From: Sanghuangporus weigelae
Taxonomy: Eukaryota > Basidiomycota > Agaricomycetes > Hymenochaetales > Hymenochaetaceae
Direction: 5' to 3'
NCBI GenBank assembly: GCA_033182465.1
Contig: CP137318.1
Span: 372,001 to 436,000 of the forward strand
DNA length: 64,000 nt
Below the pieces are notes generated by a model. It saw only the letters and a program-made list of their open reading frames with translations, ran no database searches and had not been told where the DNA came from. The position numbers and the translations under genes were made by a program. This document shows, piece after piece, positions 37,951 to 63,896 of the stretch (the first letter of the stretch is position 1; each line of letters starts with the position of its first letter).

Positions 37951-40680
37951 TCATTGGTCGGACATGAATGCTCTAGCCTGCACATCATACAACCTCTTAT
38001 ATTCTCCATTGAGAGCAATAAGTGTTTCATGGTTTCCTTGCTCCATGAGATGACCATCCTTCAAGCATCTACAGAAATATATCCTACTCAGTTTCTGTAC
38101 ATTGGAGAGATTGATAGGAAAATGTTACGAACAGAATCAAGTCCGCATGCTTTGTCAGGTGTCCGAACCGATGGGTTATAAATAAAGCCGTCTTTCCGAC
38201 GCATTGTTTGCGGAGCTTCGAAAATAGCTCGTACTCTCCTTCTGGATCGAGGGCGGAGGTCGGTTCATCCGCGACCAGAAGGCGAACGTCTCCTCCCATT
38301 AAACGCAGGAATGTCCGAGATCTTCAGTATTCATTTCCACCCATCAATCCATCTTCAAAGTCAATAATGAAGAAACATAAACGTACGCTGCGAGCCTCTG
38401 AGATTCTCCTCCAGAGATATCTGTCGATTGTTCTCTTCCATCTATGACGGCTTTCAGCTCAGGATCCGTCCCGCCAACGACACGAAGCTTGGCGGTCTTC
38501 TCAGGATGAAGTATCGTCCCGAGGCCTTGACTTAACTTCTGCACAAATGTTTCGGATCCTCCTTGACGCATTGCTTCTTCGATATTTTCTTCGGGTACAT
38601 TCCCATCTGGCAAACCGAGTGAAACGTTCTCACGTAACGACAATGGAAAAATAGGATGGTTCTGACGAAGGACTGCCATCGAGCGCCGAATGTCAGAGAG
38701 CCTGTATGATGGGAGCGGCAGACCGTCGAGAAGAATTTCACCGGAGGTCGGGTCAAACAGCCTCGTAAGAAGCTTGATGGCAGAAGACTTTCCGCTGCCG
38801 TTGACGCCAACAATTACGACCATCTGTCCAGATTCGATTTTGAAGGACACATCTGTGAGCGCATCCTTGTCCGATCCTGGATATTTAAAGGTAACGTTCC
38901 TGGTGTATGGAAACGAGGTAAAGACGTCGTTCGGATGCTGGTATCGGACATACCTGAACTCGATCTTGGCACCACCGAGATTCCCTTTATCGTGCTGCAG
39001 AGGATACGGAGTCCTACCGTCCTGAAGCTTCCTCTCGATGTTTCCTCTGGTATAAATACGCTCGATGGTATGAAGATGATCATGCATCATAGTCATACGC
39101 CAAAAGCAGTCCCACGATAACCTTCGCATTGAGCGGCATAGCTGTTGAATAATAATGAATTCGGCCAGAGAGATGCTATTATGATTCCATAGCACTCGTA
39201 AGGTGAGGAACAACTTGAATAATCAACTAGATGGCCATAAGGTCAAGATAGATGAAAGCCAACACACCAAAGAGTCCCAGGATAAACTCAACATGGTGTC
39301 GAAGTAGATGGACTGATTGATCGACCACTGATGTGTGACTGATTCAGTGCACGTATCTCCAAGCAAGCGCCTGCTCTTCTTGAACTCTATATCGATGAGG
39401 AAACGGATTTTTAGATTCAATGTCTTGGGCATGTTCACAAAAGGACTGACCATTTACGATGTAAGATCCTAGCTCACAACCAAGACGATCTTCAAGGAAT
39501 TTCTCATCAAAGGCAAGATTGTTGAGGCCTGACATGCGGTCGAAGTGCGGGTTGTTACAAAAAGTGGCATACGCTGCAATATCGTTGAGATCAGCCGAAG
39601 AAGGTGATGGGAATAGATCTTACACATCGAGTAAAAGTTCCCTTTTATTGTGCTCAGGAGAGGGTGTAGCGTGCATACTATGGTCGAGAATACCAATGTA
39701 GACCTGGTCTGAGATATGCTGACCAAAAAAGACAGCTCCGAAATGATCGAGAGAAGACCAGACATGATCTCTTTGATACCGGAAAACGCTAGCACCGCCT
39801 CGGACGTATGGGAGGTCAAGTGCGGGAACGTGTAACCAAACTTGCTGCGTATTTCTGGATCTGCGAAAGGTGAGTCAGGGTTTAAGTTTTCCATATCAGC
39901 GAAAAAGCAGCACCTTGCGCAGTCAACGGATCAAAGGTTGGCACGACTGTAACTTAGATTAGTCAATGCCATTCACACAGATAGTAACAAACAAGCTCAC
40001 CGCGCATCGTTTCCTCCAGGAAATGATATTTGATACGTTCGCATAAAAGTGAAGAATATCTCTGTCTACAAAAATATCAGCCAAAGTGCTTGTACGACAA
40101 TGCACCTTACTCCATTTTATTGATGTGCCGTTCTAGAGCCATTATCACTACTCTACCCGCCAAAGCCCACGAGACAGCAACCGCATCGACCTGATTATTC
40201 CGTAAGCCCGAAGTTATCTAGAGTTTGATTGAAATAAGTCGAAGGGGTAAGCTACTAATAGTCAAGAGTCACCACACCAAGTCGAGAATGCGGCCGGAAA
40301 AGGATGCTTGAGCTACTCCACATGCAGCGAGCAAGATATTTGTAATGACCACAGCAATCAAGTAAAACGGTCCAAGCGAGTACAAATCAGCTATGAAGCG
40401 GTAAAGATAGGAGATAGTCCGGGTCTTGAAAAACGAATCGTCCAGCATGTTCTCTTCATATATATCAGAAAATAATAGCAATGTAAATGAGAATAGGTTC
40501 ACTTTCCGAGGGACATTCATTCGCTCGCGACGTGTAAAGCAGCCTTTCTGCCCTCGTCCACATGTTCAGTAAAATGTTATACGGATCCCATAGCCATCCG
40601 AACGCGAGAAACGTTGATTGTCTTGTTACAAACGTCCATATACCAAGCTGCTGAATACGAATTTTGCCTCTTGTTGACAT
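37951..40680 (-). CDS. ABC half-transporter (TMD-NBD), copy 1
   Basis: A multi-exon gene with an N-terminal transmembrane region and one C-terminal nucleotide-binding domain. The N-terminus begins MSTRGKIRIQQLGIWTFVTR. A clear membrane helix is LGPFYLIAVVITNILLAACG. NBD motifs appear in order: Walker A GVNGSGKSS, Q-loop VLRQNHP, signature DISGGESQR, Walker B RLLVADEPTSALD, H-loop LFITHR. About 45 extra residues lie between the Q-loop and signature, with charged EKTAKLRVVGG. As a half-transporter it should dimerise and drive ATP-dependent movement of an unknown substrate across a membrane. The last intron donor is GTTCGT. The C-terminus is AFMSDQ. Copy 2 (42825-45575) is a clear paralogue on the same strand. 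I checked the NBD exons closely; the exact splice sites of the membrane half are less certain. Confidence 0.85.
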
Positions 40681-49970: not shown

Positions 49971-52350
49971 ATGGTGCGTGTTGGTTTGGTTCGAGTTCAC
50001 TAGACGCGTCCGATTACATCTGATCATCCCCGGTTCGTCTAATATCCACCGATGCTGATTATTTCGTTTACAGGACACGCGACACCAGGATCCAGAAGAG
50101 TTCTACGTCAGGCAGAATCGTATTGGTATGTCAATATCTTCATTTGCTTCCATATTCCGCCGAGTTCATTCCATGTTGATTTCTAGGAAAGGGGTCGTTT
50201 GGTGAAGTGTACAAGGGGTAAGTGGACGATCGGTGACTTCGTCTTGTTCAACTTTCTTCTTTCGTATCTTCGCGTTTCGTCACTTCTATTTAAGCCGTAA
50301 TGCTGAATCGATAATGATTAGATATGATAAGCGCACGCAGAAGACTGTTGCAATCAAAATCATTGACCTCGAGAGTGCAGAGGATGAGATAGAGGATATA
50401 CAACAAGAGATTCAGATTCTGTCTCAATTAGACTCGCCTCATGTCACGAAGTGGGTACTACTCGACTATTTACTGGCATAACGAGAGTAATCATCCTTCA
50501 ATAGGTATCACGGATCATATCTGAAAGGCTCTAATCTATGGATTGTTATGGAGTACGTTGGTTCTTCTATCCTTTCCATAAGGTCCCTGACTTTTTTGAT
50601 TAGGTACTGCTCTGGAGGTTCTTGCTCTGACCTTGTCCGTCATCTCCAGCTCCGAGTTACCTCAACTAATTATTGATGTGCTTCACAGATGAAACCGGGC
50701 GTGTTCCGAGAAGAATATATCGCCATTATCGTTCGTGAATTGCTAAAAGGCTTGGATTACCTGCACATGGAGGGAAAATTACACCGAGATATCAAAGGCA
50801 TGCATCATCACACGTATTATGCATCAGGATTCACGCTGATTATATATTTAGCTGCGAATATCTTGCTGTCGGCGACCGGAGACGTGAAGTTGGCTGACTT
50901 CGGAGTATCGGGCCAGCTTTCAGGAACACTGTCAGCTAAGAAAAACACATTTGTTGGTACTCCCTACTGGATGTCTCCGGAGGTCATCAAGCAGTCCGGG
51001 TACGACTACAAGGCAGATATCTGGAGTTTGGGGATTACCGCTATCGAATTAGCGAAGGGCGAACCACCATATGCTGAACTCCATCCCATGAAGGTACTAT
51101 TCCTCATTCCGAAGAACCCTCCACCTCAATTGGATTCATCGTTCACACGTCCATTCCGGGAGTTCGTCTCTCTCTGCTTGCAGCGCGATCCTCGGCAGGT
51201 GAGCACCATTTCACCGGTTCTCCTATTTGCCACTGGACAGTCTGACGTTGACTTACTACGTGTCGCTTCTGCCCCTTGCAGCGACCTTCAGCGCGTGAGC
51301 TCCTAAAACACAAGTTTGTACGCATGGCGAAGAAGACGAGTTACCTAACGGAGCTCATTGAACGGCATGAGCGATGGAAGGCCGAAGGTGGAGAGCGGAC
51401 GGAAGACGAAGAAGCCGCTGACGACGACATTACGTACGTCCATACAGTTCCTGGTTCCTCTTATTCTTCTCTGACTTCTCTCCTTCCGGTGATTCTCGGG
51501 CTAATGATAATATAGGGGTCTTACTCAGGAGATGGATGATTTATGGGACTTCGGCACCGTAAGGCATGTTGGTCGACAGTCGACAATTGGACGAAGAAGC
51601 GATTCGATCAATACAATCAGTGCGAATGGAAACGGAAATGCTAATTTCTACGGGAACGCCGGTGTTAATGCGAGTCCACCACGAACTCGGACTACCACTA
51701 GCGGGAGTGCAAATGGTACACCGAAGGGTCCTCGACGGACGGGTTCGGAGATCTCGTTGAACGCGAGTATAGTGACGAAGGGCGAGAAGTTACCTCCTCT
51801 TCCTCCATCTGTATCCACTATACCGGAGTCGCCATCAAAGAGACCAACCTCAACAGCTTCTTCCTCGTCAGGCTATTCTGATTCGCAGGCGACGGTTCGC
51901 CATGCGGAGCCACCTGTGCAGAGTAACGTTGCGCTGAGACTGTCGTCTGGGTCTTTCTCTGCTTCGGACGTCGTCGATGAGGAAGAAGAGGAAGATTATG
52001 GAGAGCTGCTAAGCGAGATCACAGACCCTCCATATCCGCCTATGCCTCCACAACATGATCGACACATGTCCGAGCTGGAGGATACCACAATGCTCGACTC
52101 AGTAGTTTTACCTGCCATTGCCTCGGTCAGCACGCTCTTTCTCTTTCCTGATGACTTGGTATTGACGAGATTGTTACTTCTTGTGCTATAGCTTTTCCCA
52201 CGTGTATCTACCCAGGAAGCACGAATAGCGCTCTCAGGCTTGCAGCGCGCCTTTACGGAGGCGGAGAGGATTATACCTGGCGTGACGCTCGAGCTCGTCA
52301 ACGAGATCGTTGATTCGGTCGAGCATGTTGAGGATCCTGCAGTTGTTTGA
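49971..52350 (+). CDS. Ste20-family protein kinase, germinal-centre (GCK-III) type
   Basis: Eleven exons sum to 1671 nt, 556 residues (49971-49973, 50074-50125, 50187-50217, 50322-50450, 50505-50552, 50604-50634, 50689-50797, 50852-51198, 51282-51433, 51516-52125, 52192-52350). Kinase motifs: glycine loop [21 protein letters not shown] with the ATP-binding Lys, [30 protein letters not shown] (GCK signature in the activation segment), [13 protein letters not shown]. Closest are MST3/YSK1-type kinases such as fission yeast Ppk11/Sid1 and Ustilago Don3, which act in septation and polarity; that role is inferred. The regulatory tail is Ser-rich with an acidic patch ([12 protein letters not shown]) and ends in a conserved-looking helix. 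The first coding exon supplies only the ATG, and one intron has a GC donor. Confidence 0.95.
50798..50851 (+). other. GC-AG intron inside the kinase catalytic loop
   Basis: The intron begins GCATGC and ends TTTAG. Removing it restores HRDIKAAN, the invariant catalytic loop. It is 54 nt and free of stops in frame, so if retained it would add 18 residues between the catalytic Lys and the metal-binding Asn and should kill the kinase. Confidence 0.8.
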
Positions 52351-52946: not shown

Positions 52947-55539
52947 CTACAACTTCAACTCCCTACGATACTTGACAAACGCCCTCAAGTTCTCCAACGT
53001 CTCCTCGCCCCTCGCTCTCAACATTCGCCCGCCCTCTTTCTTCCTATCCACAGCGCGTACAGCGCGTCTGAGGTTCTCCACAACACGCGAGGAGAGCTTT
53101 TCGAGGTAGGCGTGTTGACGGAAGTTGATGTCGTAAGGGAGAGCTTCGTCGGAGTAGATGTCGATTAGGGATGAGGCGGATTGGATGATCACTTCTGGGG
53201 AGAGCGTTTGGGAAGGTGGGGTCGTGCTGAGTTGCAGGAGGTACTCGGCAATTACCTAGAAATATATGAGTGAGAACGTTTAGTTGATGACATGGGGAGG
53301 AAGAAATGGCTTACTCGGTTAGCTTCGATCGATTCGGGGTATTGTGCGAGGCTCTCGAGCGCGCCGATGCATTTCACTTTGACTTCCGAGTCTGAGGAGG
53401 CATCGCAGAGCTGCATGAGGAGCTTCACTTGTTCCTCATCAGGCACCTTTTCAAAGAGATCAAAATCATCGCTTTTCAGCATCTTCCAAACCGAGTGACA
53501 TTCTTCTAACAAGAAATACTTACGATACTGCCCTTCCAGATCCCGCCGACACCCCACAAGACTCCAACTGCAATTTCCCACATCTCGCGTCTGCGTTCCT
53601 GGCCCCGGCCAACTTGGAGGCCAACAGTGCCGAGTGCTGACCAAATAGCGCTCCACAGACGCCGACCGTCCTCTACGTCGGCACGCGGCGCTCGTATAGA
53701 CGAACCACTACCACCGGATCCAGATTCCGCTTGAGCGATGGAGATAGCGAGGCACGCGTTATTCAGGCATTCGAGCGCGCTTATGTGGATCGCACTCAGC
53801 GCGGATGTCGTCGGTGGGTGTACCGGGAGAAGAGGAACGGCGCTTCCTGTGTCTGCAGGTGGGAAAGAGAGCGGAGCTGGTTGGAGGAGAGTTAGGAGAG
53901 AAGAGAGGATGCTCGGGAGGAAGGAGGGCGGAGGATGTGCGGTGCCGTTGGCTTTTACTTCGAGCTCGGACTCATATTCGGGCTCGGCGATGTCCATTTC
54001 GACGTCGTCCTCGCCATCAATTTTGTTATTTTCATCTTCGTCTGTATCAGCGTTGTCGTCCACGTCTAGCTCCTCGTCTCCTTCACCGGAATCGAGTTCC
54101 GGCTCGGGATCGGGCAGCGTCGCACAAACACCAGTCAGAACCTCCAAGCTCAGCAGGACGTTCCTCAACCTCGCTTCTATCCTCTCCAGCTCTCTTTCCT
54201 CAGGAGTCCTATCGTCCGATTTGGGAGTTTTCTTGAGCGAAGGTTTCTGATTCTCGATCTGCGGTTCTTCCTCCTGCTTTTTCACAAGCTCTATCACTCG
54301 TTCCGAGGCCTCAGCGAGAGATATGGACGTTAACACGGGGAGGACGAGAGGGAGGATGACCGTACGGTCGACGTCTACCGCCGGTGCAGCTGACGATGCA
54401 GGTATTGGTTGGATATTTCGGAGGATACCAGCCGCGAGGAGTTTGACGGATAACACGCGATCTTCGGCTAGCTCTTTTGCTTCTGTGGATGTAGGAACTG
54501 GAGCATAATCTCCACGGGCGATGGATAAGAGGCAGGCGGTGTAGGAAGAGTTGGAGCGGAGCCCGTCGATTGCGGGAGGATTGTCATCAGTTAGGACGTA
54601 CAGACATTGCGCTGAATGAACAAAGATTAAATGTTAATGAGGATGTCTTTTGTGTCTATCGTAGCATGATACATACCTGCAGCTGCGACAGTCCTCGAAG
54701 GTAACTTATCACGGCTCTCAAGAAAAGCCATGAGGAACGGAACGAGATGGATCCCATTAATAGCATTCAGAGCTTTATTGGACGTCTCTCTACTTTTCTA
54801 AGCAAGACATCCTGAGAGGAAGAAAATATAAACTTACGATAGACACCATAAGATCGTTATAACGTTTTCAGCGAGCCCGTACACAAGTTCGGAGGAGCTC
54901 TCAGGTGCGGATTTTGAGGAAGTGACAATATGGTGTAGAGCGTTGGAGATCTGTCCCGATGTCGATAAGCTTTGATCAAGAATTGGTCTCGCATGTGCTG
55001 CTCACCTTCGGTATAAACGTCTGCAATGGTGCAAGGATGTTTTTGTTATACATTTCAGCGCAAATGTCATATCCAGCATCTATGCATAAATTTCTATGCT
55101 GAAAACTCAGATCATGTATTCATCGCAAGTAAATCATATCAAGACACTCACCTTAAAGCACCAGACGCCTCAACGGCAACCTCCTCGACGCTATCCGTAA
55201 GACGCGTAATGAGTGCTCCGACGATATTCTTGCCTTGAAGTAATCGGCGCGTCGACGGGTCATTCTGGATAAGATTCGATACGGCTGAGCAAGCCCAACT
55301 ACGTTCTTGTGCATCTACGCTTTCTAGCTATACGAAAGCGGAGTGTGTTCACGGTCAGTTGAAGAGAACACGCGTGGGTATGTGATCGGATTAGAGCAGA
55401 CCTTTCGGATAATGGGCAAGACTTCATCCTTTCGTGACGATGTTGCTGACGCTACTTCGAGACCCTTCGGTAAATGCGAGTCTGGTACTCGGACTGGATT
55501 GTGTCGCCGAGCTGCTCGCTTTTTCTGCGATTTACCCAT
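52947..55539 (-). CDS. SYO1: Syo1/HEATR3-like chaperone for ribosomal proteins uL18 and uL5
   Basis: Multi-exon gene starting MGKSQKKRAARRHNPVRVPD, the basic N-terminus typical of Syo1. Armadillo repeats follow: SWACSAVSNLIQNDPSTRRL, VGALITRLTDSVEEVAVEAS, NLCIDAGYDICAEMYNKNIL. A long acidic insertion (from about DSGEGDEELDVDDNADTDED) then interrupts the repeats, and HEAT-like helices continue to the end (EEQVKLLMQLCDASSDSEVK, KCIGALESLAQYPESIEANR, FVKYRRELKL). In yeast Syo1 carries Rpl5 and Rpl11 together into the nucleus with the importin Kap104 and helps form the 5S RNP; the acidic loop is part of the known architecture. The family assignment is by motif order. The exact boundaries of the middle exons were not all verified. 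Confidence 0.88.
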
Positions 55540-58751: not shown

Positions 58752-59106
58752 ATGAACGCTCCTGCAAGCACGCGGCAGGGTGCATCGCAGACGAGTGCCG
58801 AGTACCAAAATGCTATCAAGTACGTAGAGAGGATCAAGGCGCGATACAAGGACGAACCGAAGACGTATCGGCTCCTTCTTAAGACGCTCCATAATTTCAG
58901 AAAAGATCATAATTATCGCAAGGTAAGCTTTCTCTGGCTTTGCTTTTATTGATTATTGAGACATGAAGCTGAGCTTGTCTTTCTTTGACTCTTTTGGTTA
59001 ATTGCAGGTGAATCGAAAAATCGAGCGCTTGTTCAAGGATGCGCCAGACTTGCTTGCGGAGTTTAAAAACTATATGCCCGCCGGTTGGAAGGAGGGTCGT
59101 GCGTGA
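58752..59106 (+). CDS. single PAH-domain mini-protein (Sin3 PAH2-like), copy 1
   Basis: Two exons (58752-58922 and 59008-59106) give 270 nt, 89 residues, MNAPASTRQGASQTSAEYQN to WKEGRA. One paired amphipathic helix domain fills it: NAIKYVERIKARYKDEPKTY, RLLLKTLHNFRKDHNYRK, then VNRKIERLFKDAPDLLAEFK and NYMP. Its pattern matches the second PAH domain of Sin3 (for example the FKDAPDLL..F..F.P end). PAH domains are four-helix bundles that bind short amphipathic helices of transcription factors. The intron falls at the same place as in copies 2, 4 and 5. It lacks the PAH1 domain, PAH3 and the Rpd3-binding region of Sin3. Whether it acts as a competitor or adaptor is unknown. Confidence 0.85.
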
Positions 59107-59422
59107 AGCGATTGGTCCTTCACTGAAGTAAGGATGCCATTAACGTTGCTGCAGTTATATCCGACAAGCTTAACGGTGGTGATCTATAGATGCCATAACT
59201 ACTTTGATATGTGACTCGGACTTGTAATCTCTCGATTTGTGTTTTGTAAACTTGAAATTTCGGCTGAGATCTCGTGCACGTTGCAACATCAAGTCTTACT
59301 CAGTACTGGTGATACTAAACCCAATATGAAACTTGAAATCACCCTTCTCGTTTGTTTGGTTATTGCAATATCTGTCTGTGGACTTTTGGGTTATCTGTAT
59401 CTGTCATCACGTAAGGGGTTTT

Positions 59423-59434
59423 CACGTGCATGTG
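59423..59434 (+). promoter_or_regulatory. shared upstream motif of PAH copy 2
   Basis: CACGTGCATGTG, about 100 nt before the copy 2 ATG. It combines a CACGTG E-box with a GCATG-type core and occurs at a similar spacing before copies 3 and 4. Regulatory function is inferred from this conservation; it might equally be shared by simple duplication. Confidence 0.5.
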
Positions 59435-59529
59435 CCCAGATAAATATTATTATTAATGAGTCACAACAGAACACAGAACACAGCCGCAACCACCACTCAT
59501 CAAGGTCAACCTCTTGCTCTGTTGTTAGT

Positions 59530-60357
59530 ATGATTGTTGCTTCAGACACCGTGGCCCGTGCAGATAGAGCTAATGTTGTAGTACCGACTAGAGAATTTGG
59601 TCCAGACGCCGCCATGCGAGTTACGCCCGAAGTGGACCATTTTGCGTTACTCGACATCACGAATCACGATGATAAAGAGGAATGTGCCCCAGAAGGACCA
59701 ATGAGCTTCGATGCAATGGACGCACTAGACTATCTGGACGCCATAAAGGAGCGGTTCAGAGAGAACAGGCCTGATGTGTACAGTGAATTTCTGAATATTA
59801 TGAAAGATTTCAAGAGCGAGATGTATGATTTCTCTATCCATGCTTTTGTATCATATGAGGTTGATAATGGTGAGACAGGATCGATACTTCGGAAGTGATA
59901 GACCGCGTATCAAGCTTGCTCAGAGGGCATAACGACTTGATACAAGGATTCAATACGTTCTTGCCTCCAGGGTATCGCATACCGTGCACCACTGATGCGA
60001 TAGATACGACAACTACGCCGGGATTTACCCTGGACAGAAGCCACAACAAACCGAGTGGAGCGCAACGAGATGCACCTTCCGAATTTCAGAAAGCCGTTCA
60101 GTTTGTGAACAAGGCTAAAACTCTGTACCGAAACAACCCGGAAAAGTATATGCTCTTCCTCGAGGCATTACAGTCTTATAAGGGAAGTCAGGATTCCGAC
60201 GACGTAGGTTTTCTCAGCTTCATTCATCGAGGACGGAATTGACTTGCCTTTGTTTTTGTAGTTGTATCACAGAGTTGAGCTCATGTTTCGGGATGCACCA
60301 GATTTGCTCGCGGATTTGAAAGAATTCCTTGCACCCACCGAAGTTCGGCGTACATGA
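59530..60357 (+). CDS. two-PAH mini-Sin3 protein, copy 2
   Basis: Three exons (59530-59822, 59879-60203, 60262-60357) sum to 714 nt, 237 residues. PAH1 spans about residues 64-132: [35 protein letters not shown], then [20 protein letters not shown] and [14 protein letters not shown] across the intron. This closely follows Sin3 PAH1, including the FNTFLPPGY end. PAH2 spans about 166-230: [60 protein letters not shown]. The acidic N-terminus has no known motif. It is the best-preserved member of the array. I chose the Met at 59530, matching copy 3. A longer in-frame start at 59326 would add a hydrophobic segment (see findings). Nuclear action as a PAH-only decoy or adaptor is an inference. Confidence 0.85.
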
Positions 60358-60738
60358 AATAATCCTTACGCTACATTCGCCCACTCCCTTCGTAGCAATC
60401 GAATTCTGTAATGTGATGTACTCTACCCGAGAATCTAACCTTGCCTTCGACTTTTAACTCAGTCAGGCGTTATGCATCAAAGGTGACTAAATGCAATCAA
60501 TTGTTACTTATTACTTCTATCCTGAGTGGACTGGCTCCAAATCGGCCTCGGATAACTTGAAACTTGACATCTCCGTTGAACGTTGAGATCTTATACCCCC
60601 GTTTCAGTATTCCTCAGTCTGTGGTAATGAGAATCACTATAAAGCTCAAGATCTCCTTTCTGGTTTGTTCGGCTGTTCTTGGGCGCATCTGGATTCTGTA
60701 GACGCCTGTATTTGTTCTTTGATCTATGAAGTGATTCA

Positions 60739-60750
60739 CACGTGCATGTG
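60739..60750 (+). promoter_or_regulatory. shared upstream motif of PAH copy 3
   Basis: CACGTGCATGTG identical to that of copy 2, 112 nt before the copy 3 ATG. Confidence 0.5.
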
Positions 60751-60861
60751 ACCAACCGAATGTGAAATGACTCGGCGTATAGATCATATACATGATACAT
60801 CATTCGCGCCTTCTTATTTGACTACCACTCACCGAGACCAGCCACTTGCTCTGTTGTTACT

Positions 60862-61480
60862 ATGGACATTGCTTCAAGCACTGCAGCCCGATCAGACACA
60901 GATAATGATGTAGTACCGACTAAAGAAAATAGTCCAGACACCGTCACACAAGGAAAGTCCGAAGCGGTTCGTGATTCCGAGCAACGAGAAGCAGTCCACG
61001 ATGATGACGATAAGGAGGAACCTGCTTCAGAAGAACCGATCAAACTCAGTGTAGTGGATGCACTCAACTACATAGACGCTATAAAGGCGCGATTCGCGCA
61101 GAAGAGGCCCGATGTCTACAATAGTTTTCTGGATACTATGAAGGATTTCAAAAGCCACGTGTATGGGTTCTATACGTATGCTTTTGATCATATACGACTG
61201 AATATGATGACGCAGGATCGATACCCCTGGTTCCGTAGATCGTATATCAAGCCTATTCGGAGGGCATGGTGACTTGATACAAGGATTTAATAAGTTCTTG
61301 CCTCCGGGGTATTGCATACCATGCACGAGTGATGCGGTAGACACGACAACTACCTCCGTGAGGACTTTTTTGGATGGAAACCGCAATGGACAGGTTAGAA
61401 GCGGACGAGGCTTACCAGCCGTTCAATCAGATATTCATAATTCTGTGCGGTTCGTGAATAACGTTAAGGCCCGGTTGTAG
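60862..61480 (+). CDS. PAH1-only mini-Sin3 protein, copy 3 (truncated PAH2)
   Basis: Two exons (60862-61160 and 61216-61480) give 564 nt, 187 residues. PAH1 is intact at about 66-134: [72 protein letters not shown]2 begins ([15 protein letters not shown]) but ends at a stop after its first helix, where about 25 bases present in the other copies are missing. A relic of the last PAH2 exon is still recognisable at 61588-61668. The N-terminal part is acidic ([14 protein letters not shown]). It may still make a single-PAH protein, or it may be a pseudogene. The reading frame of the PAH1 part is undamaged. Confidence 0.7.
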
Positions 61481-61587
61481 ATTGTTCCTGGAGGTATTTT
61501 GTTCTTATATATGAAAAATCAGGATTGTAGGTCTCCGGATTGTAGGTCTCCGTTCCGTTTCCATCATCAAACATGAAGTTGCCATGT

Positions 61588-61668
61588 CTTTTCACTCGTA
61601 GATGTGATGTATGACAAGTTCGAGTAGTTATGTATTATGGCATGAACCAGATTCACTCGCGGAACATA
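61588..61668 (+). pseudogene. relic of the last PAH2 exon of copy 3
   Basis: The sequence after TTTTCACTCGTAG resembles the last exon of copies 4 and 5 (TGTATGACAAG, then GAACCAGATTCACTCGCGGA versus GCACCAGATTTGCTCGCGGA) but has extra bases and no usable frame with the upstream part. It marks the original extent of copy 3. Confidence 0.6.
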
Positions 61669-61682
61669 AACGGACTGTATGT

Positions 61683-61706
61683 ACCAGTACTACTGCTAGT
61701 ACTGGT
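61683..61706. repeat. perfect short inverted repeat
   Basis: ACCAGTACTA, loop CTGC, TAGTACTGGT: ten perfect base pairs around a 4-nt loop, in the spacer between PAH copies 3 and 4. Confidence 0.75.
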
Positions 61707-61785
61707 GGCGCGAAGGACTTCGACATACACAAATCATCAGCACCTTGCAATTATTTTTTCTCTGAGCTGAAGTGATGTGATTTCC

Positions 61786-61797
61786 CACGTGCATGTG
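61786..61797 (+). promoter_or_regulatory. shared upstream motif of PAH copy 4
   Basis: CACGTGCATGTG again, at the equivalent place before copy 4, 150 nt before the start I chose. Confidence 0.45.
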
Positions 61798-61935
61798 ATC
61801 CAGACGCGAAATGAGCCACGAACACTCACTCACGCTTTCTTGCCCAACCATCACTCATCGAGACCAAGCACTTGTTCTTTGGTCTGTCCTATATCATTAG
61901 CTCTGGCTGCAGTACCGGAAATACTGTCCATACTA

Positions 61936-62708
61936 ATGACAGAAAGTGGCCCGGACGCTGTTATGCAGCTAGAAACCGAAGTGGACCATTTCGCGTTGCT
62001 CGATGTCACGAATTGCAAAGACAAAGAGGGACCTGCTCCAAGGGGATCAGTACAACTCGATCTAGAGGATGCACTCGACTATCTGGACGCTTTAAAGGCA
62101 CGGTTCCTGGACAAGAGGCCTGATGTGTACAATAATTTTTTGGATACTATGAAGGATTTCATGCTGGGAGTGTATGATTTTTCTATCTATGTTTTTCGTC
62201 TATTGTACAACTAATAAGGATGACATAGAATCGATACTCCTGGGGTGATGGACCGTATATCAAGCCTACTCAGAGGGCATAACGATTTGATACAAGAATT
62301 TAATAAGTTCTTGCCTCCAGGATATGACATATCGTGTACACCTGTTGCGTCGGACACGGCAGTTATTTCCTCAGGAACTAGCTTGAATGAAATCCACAAT
62401 GGACCGGATAGAGGTAGATGGGAAGCGCAGGGCGACATCGCTGAGTTTCATACTGCTATCCGGTTCGTACACAAGATCAAGACTCGGTATGAAAACAATC
62501 CGGAGAAGTTTATACACTTCCTAGAGGCATTACGTTCTTACAGGAAAAGTCAGGATTTTGACGACGTAGGTCTTCTCTGCCCCATTCATCGAATACGCCG
62601 TCTGACTTGTCTTTGCTCTCGTAGGTATATCGCAAAGTCGAGCCCTTCTTTCGGGATGCACCAGATTTGCTCGCGGAATTCAAAGAATTCTTTGTACCCG
62701 TGGCTTGA
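61936..62708 (+). CDS. two-PAH mini-Sin3 protein, copy 4
   Basis: Three exons (61936-62171, 62229-62565, 62625-62708) sum to 657 nt, 218 residues. PAH1 (about 45-113): [72 protein letters not shown]2 (about 148-212): [65 protein letters not shown]. Both domains are complete. The Met used by copies 2 and 3 has become Ile here, so the first available Met is 20 or so residues inside the homologous N-terminus; that is the start given. The frame is open for 160 nt upstream without an ATG. Translation from this Met would still give both domains. Confidence 0.75.
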
Positions 62709-62985
62709 ACCGCGTAGTTCGGCATGCATAACTTAGTCCTTGTGGTGCCACACGCAAATCGTGCCATAACAATCATACTTGTCTTTAGCTTAAACTTGGC
62801 GAGGCTTTGAATAGCAAAAGTTCTCGAATGCAATTGTGGCTTCTGGGCTTAGTGACCTGGTTGCAGTCTATAAACTTGAAATTTCGATCGAGATCTCATA
62901 CCCACTCTCAATTTGCAATGAAGACCAATTAAAACCTGAAACCTCTTTTTTAGTAATCGCGATTCTTTTCTCTTCAGTGATTTCC

Positions 62986-62997
62986 CATGCGCATGCG
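62986..62997 (+). promoter_or_regulatory. diverged upstream motif of PAH copy 5
   Basis: CATGCGCATGCG, a changed form of the CACGTGCATGTG found before copies 2-4, in the same TTTCCCA context as copy 4. The E-box half has been lost. Confidence 0.4.
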
Positions 62998-63088
62998 ACC
63001 CGGACGTGGAACGAAACTTGCTAGTTACGGGTGAGAGATCATATCCTTATCATCATTTGCACCTTCTTGTCTAACCACTACTCATCTA

Positions 63089-63896
63089 GTGTCAACAGGG
63101 CAAGTTGGTGTAGACTGGGCCACCCAGGGAACAATCGAAGCAGGTCGTGACGCGGAGCAACGAAAAGCAGACAGTGGGAATAAAGAGACAACTATTCCGG
63201 AAAGGCCGAAAGGATACGATGCAAATGATGTACGCAACTTTGTGGACGCCATAAAAGCGCGATTCGGAGACAAGAGTCCTCATATCTGCAACAATTTATG
63301 GAATAGTATGAGCGATTACAGGAAATGTGTGTGCGGCTTCTCTGTTTATTCTTTCCATATAGTATACGACTCATAACAATTACGCAGAATTGATGTTCCC
63401 GGGATGTTGGACCGCGTATCAAGCCTACTCAGAGGGCACGATGACTTGATAGAAGAATTTAATAAGTTCTTTCCGGAGTATCGCATGGAGTGCACAAGTG
63501 ACACGTCGGACACAACAAGAACTTTTTCCGAGACTACTCTAGAAAAAGGCCACAATGGTGGAGCTAAAGTGCGACCTACTCGTGATGGTGCCATACAATT
63601 TGTGTACAAGGTTAAGACCCGGTTCGAAAACGATCCGAAAACGTTTAGACTCTTCCTTGAAGTACTACTTTCATACGAGAAAAGTCAGAATTCTGACGAC
63701 GTTGGTTTTCTTCATCTCATTCGGTGAGTGCAAACTTGACTTGTCTTTGTCCTTGTAGATGTATGACAAAGCCAAGTACTCATTAAAGGATGCTCCAGAT
63801 CTACTTGCGGGGCACAGAATCTTTTCAGGGGTACTTACTGAAGCCCGGCATATCTGGTCTAATCCTAATCGCTACAGAAGGATTAATCTTCTGTAG
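63089..63896 (+). pseudogene. two-PAH mini-Sin3 gene, copy 5, without a start codon
   Basis: Three coding segments (to 63330, 63388-63700, 63759-63896) keep a single frame through both intron positions. PAH1 is diverged (DVRNFVDAIKARFGDKSPHI, SMSDYRKCV) but its second half is good ([33 protein letters not shown]). PAH2 is recognisable (AIQFVYKVKTRFENDPKTFR, LFLEVLLSYEKSQNSDD, MYDKAKYSLKDAPDLLAG), then runs into a novel tail ending at a stop within a hairpin. Compared with copy 2, a deletion of roughly 70 nt has removed the usual ATG, and no other ATG precedes PAH1 in frame. It may use an upstream exon, or be a decaying copy. The frame conservation suggests that the loss is recent. Confidence 0.6.

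Follow-up and report, generated by a model that had tools for sequence, protein, structure and literature searches.

The question raised by this locus is whether a run of short sequences with SIN3-type PAH domains represents a set of genes and, if so, where the genes came from and whether they have been kept. The stretch analysed, referred to here as the window, is 64,000 nucleotides in length (C1:372001-436000, on contig CP137318.1 of Sanghuangporus weigelae) and belongs to an assembly of 33.87 Mb in 13 contigs. Five gene-like, SIN3-derived PAH units, labeled g1 to g5, lie head to tail on the + strand at window positions 58752-63896. With m1, m2, p1, and p2, found elsewhere in the genome, there are nine PAH-only loci. 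The preferred reading is that these PAH-only copies are truncated SIN3 genes evolving by birth and death, with products that may act as competitive decoys of SIN3. It is held tentatively, with a rough probability of 0.48. The features of the array are listed below.

58752-58922 and 59008-59106 (exons), + strand: g1, a PAH2-only gene of 89 amino acids with a spliced frame; PF02671 E=2.6e-8
59423-59435, + strand: CACGTG-type motif of g2, 107 bp ahead of the g2 ATG
59530-59822, 59879-60203, and 60262-60357 (exons), + strand: g2, an intact PAH1+PAH2 gene of 237 amino acids; PF02671 E=1.2e-31, two stretches
60739-60751, + strand: upstream motif of g3
60862-61480 (exons 60862-61160 and 61216-61480), + strand: g3, a PAH1 gene of 187 amino acids; PF02671 E=4.5e-17 (PAH1 only)
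61786-61798, + strand: upstream motif of g4
61936-62171, 62229-62565, and 62625-62708 (exons), + strand: g4, an intact PAH1+PAH2 gene of 218 amino acids; PF02671 E=1.6e-28
62986-62998, + strand: upstream motif of g5, diverged (3 mismatches)
63089-63330, 63388-63700, and 63759-63896 (exon remnants), + strand: g5, a decaying PAH1+PAH2 copy; PF02671 E=1.8e-17

Once introns are removed, all five array units exceed the PF02671 cut-off in Pfam. The PAH1 intron is 55-57 nucleotides long and has an identical position in the four array copies that have PAH1. The PAH2 intron is 58-59 nucleotides long in g2, g4, and g5, and 85 nucleotides long in g1. Both positions recur in SIN3A, a full-length SIN3 gene near the array, where the PAH1 intron is 67 nucleotides long. 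Across the minigene and SIN3 N-terminal models, introns range from 49 to 85 nucleotides. Introns this short, together with the gene style, would point to a mushroom-type basidiomycete. Where several GT-AG pairs were possible, the pair aligning with the other copies was chosen. Two introns are present in each of g2 and g4, and both proteins finish a few residues past PAH2. The g4 start is an ATG further downstream than those of g2 and g3. The g3 frame is ended by a TAG at 61478-61480, inside the first helix of PAH2. Both introns are kept in g5, which has damage in PAH1 and PAH2 and lacks an in-frame ATG. The first-pass annotation had described five head-to-tail genes encoding only PAH1 and/or PAH2, with shared intron positions. 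The five units, their PAH identity, their SIN3 derivation, and the intron positions all stand. Five intact genes do not, given the TAG in g3 and the missing ATG of g5.

The upstream motif, CACGTGCATGTGA, starts at window positions 59423, 60739, 61786, and 62986, and the spacings first given for it (1316, 1047, and 1200 bp) were reproduced exactly. The distance from motif to ATG is 103-150 bp in g2 to g5, measured in g5 to the first open codon. SIN3A contains CACGTTCACGTGA 86 bp ahead of its own ATG. With up to three mismatches, the motif has 26 matches in the window; shuffled versions average 17.2, and five of the 100 get as high as 26. The motif by itself is weak evidence; its phasing with the genes carries the weight. 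None of the window matches at this threshold lies in the 1 kb upstream of g1. With no PAH1 and no upstream motif match, g1 is outside the tandem repeat unit, and the tandem unit originally proposed holds for g2 to g5 only.

The g2 frame also runs without a stop back to an ATG at 59326, which would add a hydrophobic, membrane-like stretch (window 59326-59529). A short similar upstream reading, seen by eye in g3, is interrupted by a stop. The stretch upstream of g2 is probably promoter DNA rather than part of a longer isoform.

The genome contains two full-length SIN3 genes. SIN3A, on the strand opposite the array, lies close by and points at it. It starts at C1:449239 (minus strand), 13 kb from the array end, and its last Sin3a_C match, at C1:442983, is 7 kb from the array end. 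SIN3B is on another contig and starts at C13:1083848 (plus strand). PAH3 is visible in SIN3A, which has three PAH stretches, and in SIN3B (C13:1085479). Sin3_corepress has two matches in the genome (C1:447201-447452 and C13:1085760-1086029), both inside the full-length SIN3 genes, and the Sin3a_C matches are likewise confined to these two loci. A genome search with PF02671 at E<=0.001 gave 12 matches, five in the array, two in m1/m2, three in SIN3A, and two in SIN3B. These counts are lower bounds, as g1 and p1 are not among the matches, probably because introns split their PAH domains.

Array DNA aligns with the SIN3A stretch in eight pieces of 66-74% identity, and with the SIN3B contig in only five pieces of 29-53 bases. 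The g2 N-terminus matches SIN3A as well (residues 6-98, 45%). Judging from these alignments and the shared promoter motif, SIN3A is the evident source of the array. A one-residue insertion is common to the four array PAH1 copies and is not present in SIN3A, SIN3B, m1, or m2, which points to one founder for g2 to g5. Against PDB sequences, g2 matches SIN3 (8kc7_B, E=1.9e-41) and Pst1 (8i03_A, 5.5e-34). The short genes are predicted to adopt the PAH fold from the Pfam and PDB sequence matches. The first-pass annotation had expected the array to continue past the window, and this was not borne out. Between g5 and SIN3A, PAH queries yield chance-level matches only (E 0.26 or worse). The array ends with g5.

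Some observations concern the SIN3 genes themselves. PAH2 is strongly diverged between SIN3A and SIN3B (nonsynonymous divergence, dN, 0.61) and PAH1 is close (dN 0.18), so the SIN3 paralogues may differ mainly in their PAH2 partners. The C-terminal part of SIN3A is broken by non-coding gaps of ~0.7 and 0.9 kb (C1:443800-445540). In the matching part of SIN3B, the first two gaps are ~50-60 bases by eye. A PDR-type ABC transporter (L015 5711-7894) adjoins SIN3A, according to Pfam.

The PAH-only loci outside the array are as follows.

C13:1081111: m1, a PAH1+PAH2 gene of 275 amino acids, head to tail with m2 and directly upstream of SIN3B
C13:1082643: m2, a PAH1+PAH2 gene of 217 amino acids, directly upstream of SIN3B
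C2:3876259-3875634, minus strand: p1, a PAH1-only gene with an open frame of 182 amino acids
C2:2330826-2330242: p2, a frame-broken copy of p1 plus flanks

Across the nine loci, complete frames with GT-AG introns are present in g1, g2, g4, m1, and p1, and m2 is complete with odd splice sites. The g3 frame is shortened, and g5 and p2 are broken. PAH matches were obtained in all eight short models, with two stretches in g2, g4, g5, m1, and m2 and one in g1, g3, and p1. In p1, Pfam covers only profile positions 20-43 of the 45 in PF02671 (23.0 bits; cut-off 21.3). Neither the Pfam scan of the short models nor the genome search gave a match to PAH3, Sin3_corepress, or Sin3a_C in them, and for the array this agrees with the claim that PAH3 and the deacetylase-binding region are absent. 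No further Pfam domain is above cut-off in the short models except a PAH variant, PAH_ZNF598, in g2. Three SIN3B intron positions are kept in m1 and m2, including the intron in the PAH1-PAH2 linker. These two genes also share a similar private C-terminal tail that is not seen in SIN3B. The p1 and p2 loci are a dispersed pair with shared flanks.

A tree was constructed from PAH1+PAH2 using seven sequences (SIN3A, SIN3B, g2, g4, g5, m1, and m2). Loci g1, g3, and p1 were left out because each is without one domain. The tree splits SIN3A with g2, g4, and g5 from SIN3B with m1 and m2 (support 100), and g2, g4, and g5 group at 99. A single origin was rejected, as forcing the five minigenes together costs a log-likelihood difference (delta lnL) of 72, with p=3e-7 in the approximately unbiased (AU) test. 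The PAH1-PAH2 linker intron agrees, being present in SIN3B, m1, and m2 and absent in SIN3A, g2, and g4. By the reconstructed tree and the AU test, PAH-only copies are shown to have been born at least twice, once beside each SIN3 gene. The grouping of m1 with m2 is recovered by PAH2 (91) and by both domains together (70), and PAH1 puts m1 with SIN3B (79).

Other candidates were set aside. A placement of p1 with g5 is possibly long-branch attraction and was not used. Viral or prokaryotic relatives of PAH1 were rejected, with 0 of 19 pattern matches confirmed in viral contigs and 0 of 57 in prokaryotic genome contigs. A search for RXT2_N as a marker of complex subunits gave no match anywhere and was uninformative.

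Selection was measured as the ratio of nonsynonymous to synonymous rates (dN/dS, or omega) under the GY94 codon model on fixed trees, using our own maximum-likelihood script, with 2 delta lnL tested against omega=1. In a nine-sequence fit, omega is 0.36 for m1/m2 (2 delta lnL 18.0), 0.59 for g2 to g5 (10.3), and 0.04 for SIN3, the last value being rough because of synonymous saturation between SIN3A and SIN3B. The value for g1 is 0.68 (0.5), not different from 1. Fits with SIN3A alone give a SIN3 omega of 0.21-0.24, and fits with SIN3B alone give 0.05-0.09. Omega is 0.62 for g2 to g5 alone (7.3) and 0.36 for m1 and m2 alone (14.5). Taken singly, m2 differs from 1 (0.30; 8.7) and m1 does not (0.48; 1.7). 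Both classes, array and m1/m2, have a dN/dS below 1 and far above that of SIN3, whose branches are lower (0.04-0.24) in every fit that includes them.

In 2000 runs of a neutral simulation, the frame stayed free of stops in 8% for g2, 13% for g4, 0.2% for m1, and 0.25% for m2. With shorter assumed lengths these values are 23%, 26%, 3.4%, and 4.7%, respectively. The simulation randomly substitutes the present-day sequences to the fitted length, ignoring indels and splice sites. Hydrophobic sites were compared with neutral expectation in 600 runs per gene, with P uncorrected for seven genes. Retention is above neutral in g2 (52 of 55 sites, P=0.012) and m1 (49 of 52, P=0.005), and borderline in m2 (44 of 51, 0.058) and g5 (46 of 54, 0.062). 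Residue identity at these sites is above neutral only in m1 (P=0.003) and m2 (P=0.005). On the omega, stop, and hydrophobic-site results, m1 and m2 look maintained, g2 looks maintained too, and g4 perhaps; g3 and g5 do not.

The PAH domain binds short helices (SIDs) of partner proteins. The columns that we take to be the SID contacts were located through the human SIN3B register together with the Sin3A motif. Passages of PMC6295471 give Ile308/Val311 and Leu329/Leu332 as SID contacts of Sin3A PAH2, and cite solved structures (2RMS, 2CZY, and 1G1E) in which isolated PAH1 and PAH2 bind SIDs. The four PAH2 positions read I/V/L/L in SIN3A, g1, g4, and g5, V/V/L/L in g2, M/V/I/L in SIN3B, and M/V/L/L in m1. 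By this reading of the alignment, they remain hydrophobic in g1, g2, g4, g5, and m1. The equivalent PAH1 positions are hydrophobic in g2, g3, and g4, and g5 has an R.

The decoy reading would proceed as follows. The 5' end of SIN3A (CACGTG-type promoter, N-terminus, PAH1, PAH2, and introns) would have been duplicated, leaving out PAH3 and the deacetylase-binding part, and the truncated copy then amplified head to tail. The same truncation and duplication would have happened independently beside SIN3B, giving m1 and m2. The intact products (g2, g4, and m1; perhaps g1, m2, and p1) would be expressed, most likely folding as free PAH domains. They may then bind SIDs, whether in transcription factors or in complex subunits, and would be unable to bring the deacetylase module. 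A free PAH1+PAH2 protein should occupy SID partners without the deacetylase, because isolated PAH domains bind SIDs and the deacetylase-contact part of SIN3 is missing. Such decoys would tune SIN3 recruitment by competition, the array copies doing so under a promoter inherited from SIN3A. The copies would turn over, with g3, g5, and p2 dying.

Several points weigh against this reading. Two of the five array copies are damaged. To stay in frame, the m2 model had to be given a weak donor and a GC-AG intron. Constraint on the intact array pair is weak, with omega 0.58 for g2 and g4 alone (2 delta lnL 4.0). With SIN3A added it is 0.60 (3.8), not significant at 0.05, and as a class in the array-plus-SIN3A tree the pair has 0.63 (3.2), also not significant. 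None of g3 (0.43; 2.9), g5 (0.83; 0.4), and g1 differs from 1. Hydrophobic retention is not significant for g1, g3, g4, g5, or m2. At the PAH2 contact positions m2 reads K/V/C/L, with K and C at two of them, and m1 has E at one equivalent PAH1 position. Parts of PMC6295471 argue that only a fraction of Sin3A is occupied by transcription factors and that competition for PAH sites may therefore be rarer than first thought. A fuller version is unlikely, namely a genome-encoded decoy system in which PAH-only genes derive from both SIN3 paralogues, selection has kept some of them, the array has its parent's promoter, and competition by free PAH proteins tunes SIN3-deacetylase recruitment; rapid turnover would then suggest an arms race with SID-bearing partners, or fast rewiring of the links to them.

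The first rival is decay without function, in which unequal crossing-over near SIN3 yields truncated copies that are slowly lost. Damage to g3 and g5 and the broken frame of p2 are what it predicts, and the array dN/dS of 0.43-0.83 fits it, as do the lower omega of the SIN3 branches and the hydrophobic sites of g1, g3, g4, and g5. It accounts less well for m1 and m2, whose frames, intron positions, and similar private C-terminus have been retained at high synonymous divergence, with a dN/dS of 0.36 (2 delta lnL 18). The array class is likewise below 1, and births occurred at both SIN3 loci. As an account of the array, decay competes strongly; for m1/m2 it does so less, and for the family as a whole it is doubtful.

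A second rival makes the PAH-only proteins adaptors independent of histone deacetylase (HDAC) rather than decoys. Recruited by transcription factors, they would repress or activate by themselves or bring other partners. The architecture is that of SIN3B(293), a mammalian Sin3b splice form that, according to portions of PMC5902990, represses basal transcription even though it has no HDAC-interaction region, and the tail common to m1 and m2 also speaks for this reading. However, g2 and g4 stop a few residues past PAH2, and PAH_ZNF598 in g2 is the only extra Pfam match. The adaptor explanation is improbable. Two further possibilities, that the array units are exons of a single long gene with many PAH domains and that the array is an assembly artefact, can be dismissed, in agreement with the separate genes of the first-pass annotation. 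The units do lie close to one another on the same strand, but g2, g3, and g4 each have their own ATG, stop, at least ~0.4 kb of intergenic DNA, and upstream motif, and array copies only 68-78% identical in PAH1 DNA are too diverged to be an assembly duplication.

Pfam identifies as window neighbors an ABC transporter (38347-39222), a protein kinase (50677-51303), and a SYO1-like repeat protein (53509-54633). Five of the nine neighboring reading frames scanned have no Pfam match.

If the decoy reading is true, short genes that duplicate the recruiting domains of a conserved chromatin scaffold would regulate that scaffold. This would be the mirror image of the SID decoys aimed at the PAH2 of SIN3A in cancer work, as described in parts of PMC8997856 and PMC5687616. 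Two independent births in one genome would offer a testable case of decoy genes arising beside their parent. If the decoy reading is false, the loci still illustrate clearly how partial genes are born and die next to a gene that evolves slowly.

Tandem PAH-only genes did not turn up among the titles and abstract starts of the open-access papers listed, with subscription journals mostly outside and no preprints. Other mushrooms may well have annotated single-PAH proteins. The available portions of PMC2266940 and PMC9217932 contain no tandem PAH-only genes. Three known systems can be compared. The PAH1 and PAH2 of the short genes are plain SIN3 PAH domains, like those of S. cerevisiae SIN3, S. 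pombe Pst1/Pst2/Pst3, and mammalian SIN3A/SIN3B; unlike SIN3, the short genes have no match to PAH3, Sin3_corepress, or Sin3a_C.

MicroProteins are described, in parts of PMC7534434, PMC5381583, and PMC6003976, as single-domain relatives of multi-domain proteins that disturb the complexes of those proteins. The likeness is in the multi-domain parent, the interaction domain kept, and the effector part lost, and the short genes encode 89-275 amino acids and derive from SIN3A or SIN3B. The difference is that g2, g4, m1, and m2 have two PAH domains, only g1, g3, and p1 being strictly single-domain, and that interference with the SIN3 complex is here a prediction. Sin3, PAH, yeast, and words beginning in "fung-" do not occur in the main text of PMC5381583.

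The third system is SIN3B(293), or SIN3B-SF. It is described in portions of PMC5902990 as a protein of 293 residues whose sole domains are PAH1 and PAH2 and which has 19 residues private to it, and is said there to be able to compete for partners. Like the short genes, it has PAH1+PAH2 only, a short private C-terminus, and no HDAC-interaction domain. The protein architecture is thus already known, and of the initial statement that no stand-alone tandem PAH genes had been described, the part on tandem genes holds among the open-access papers listed and the part on PAH-only proteins does not. SIN3B(293) is a splice form of one gene, whereas the PAH-only copies described here are separate, duplicated, fast-evolving genes beside both SIN3 genes.

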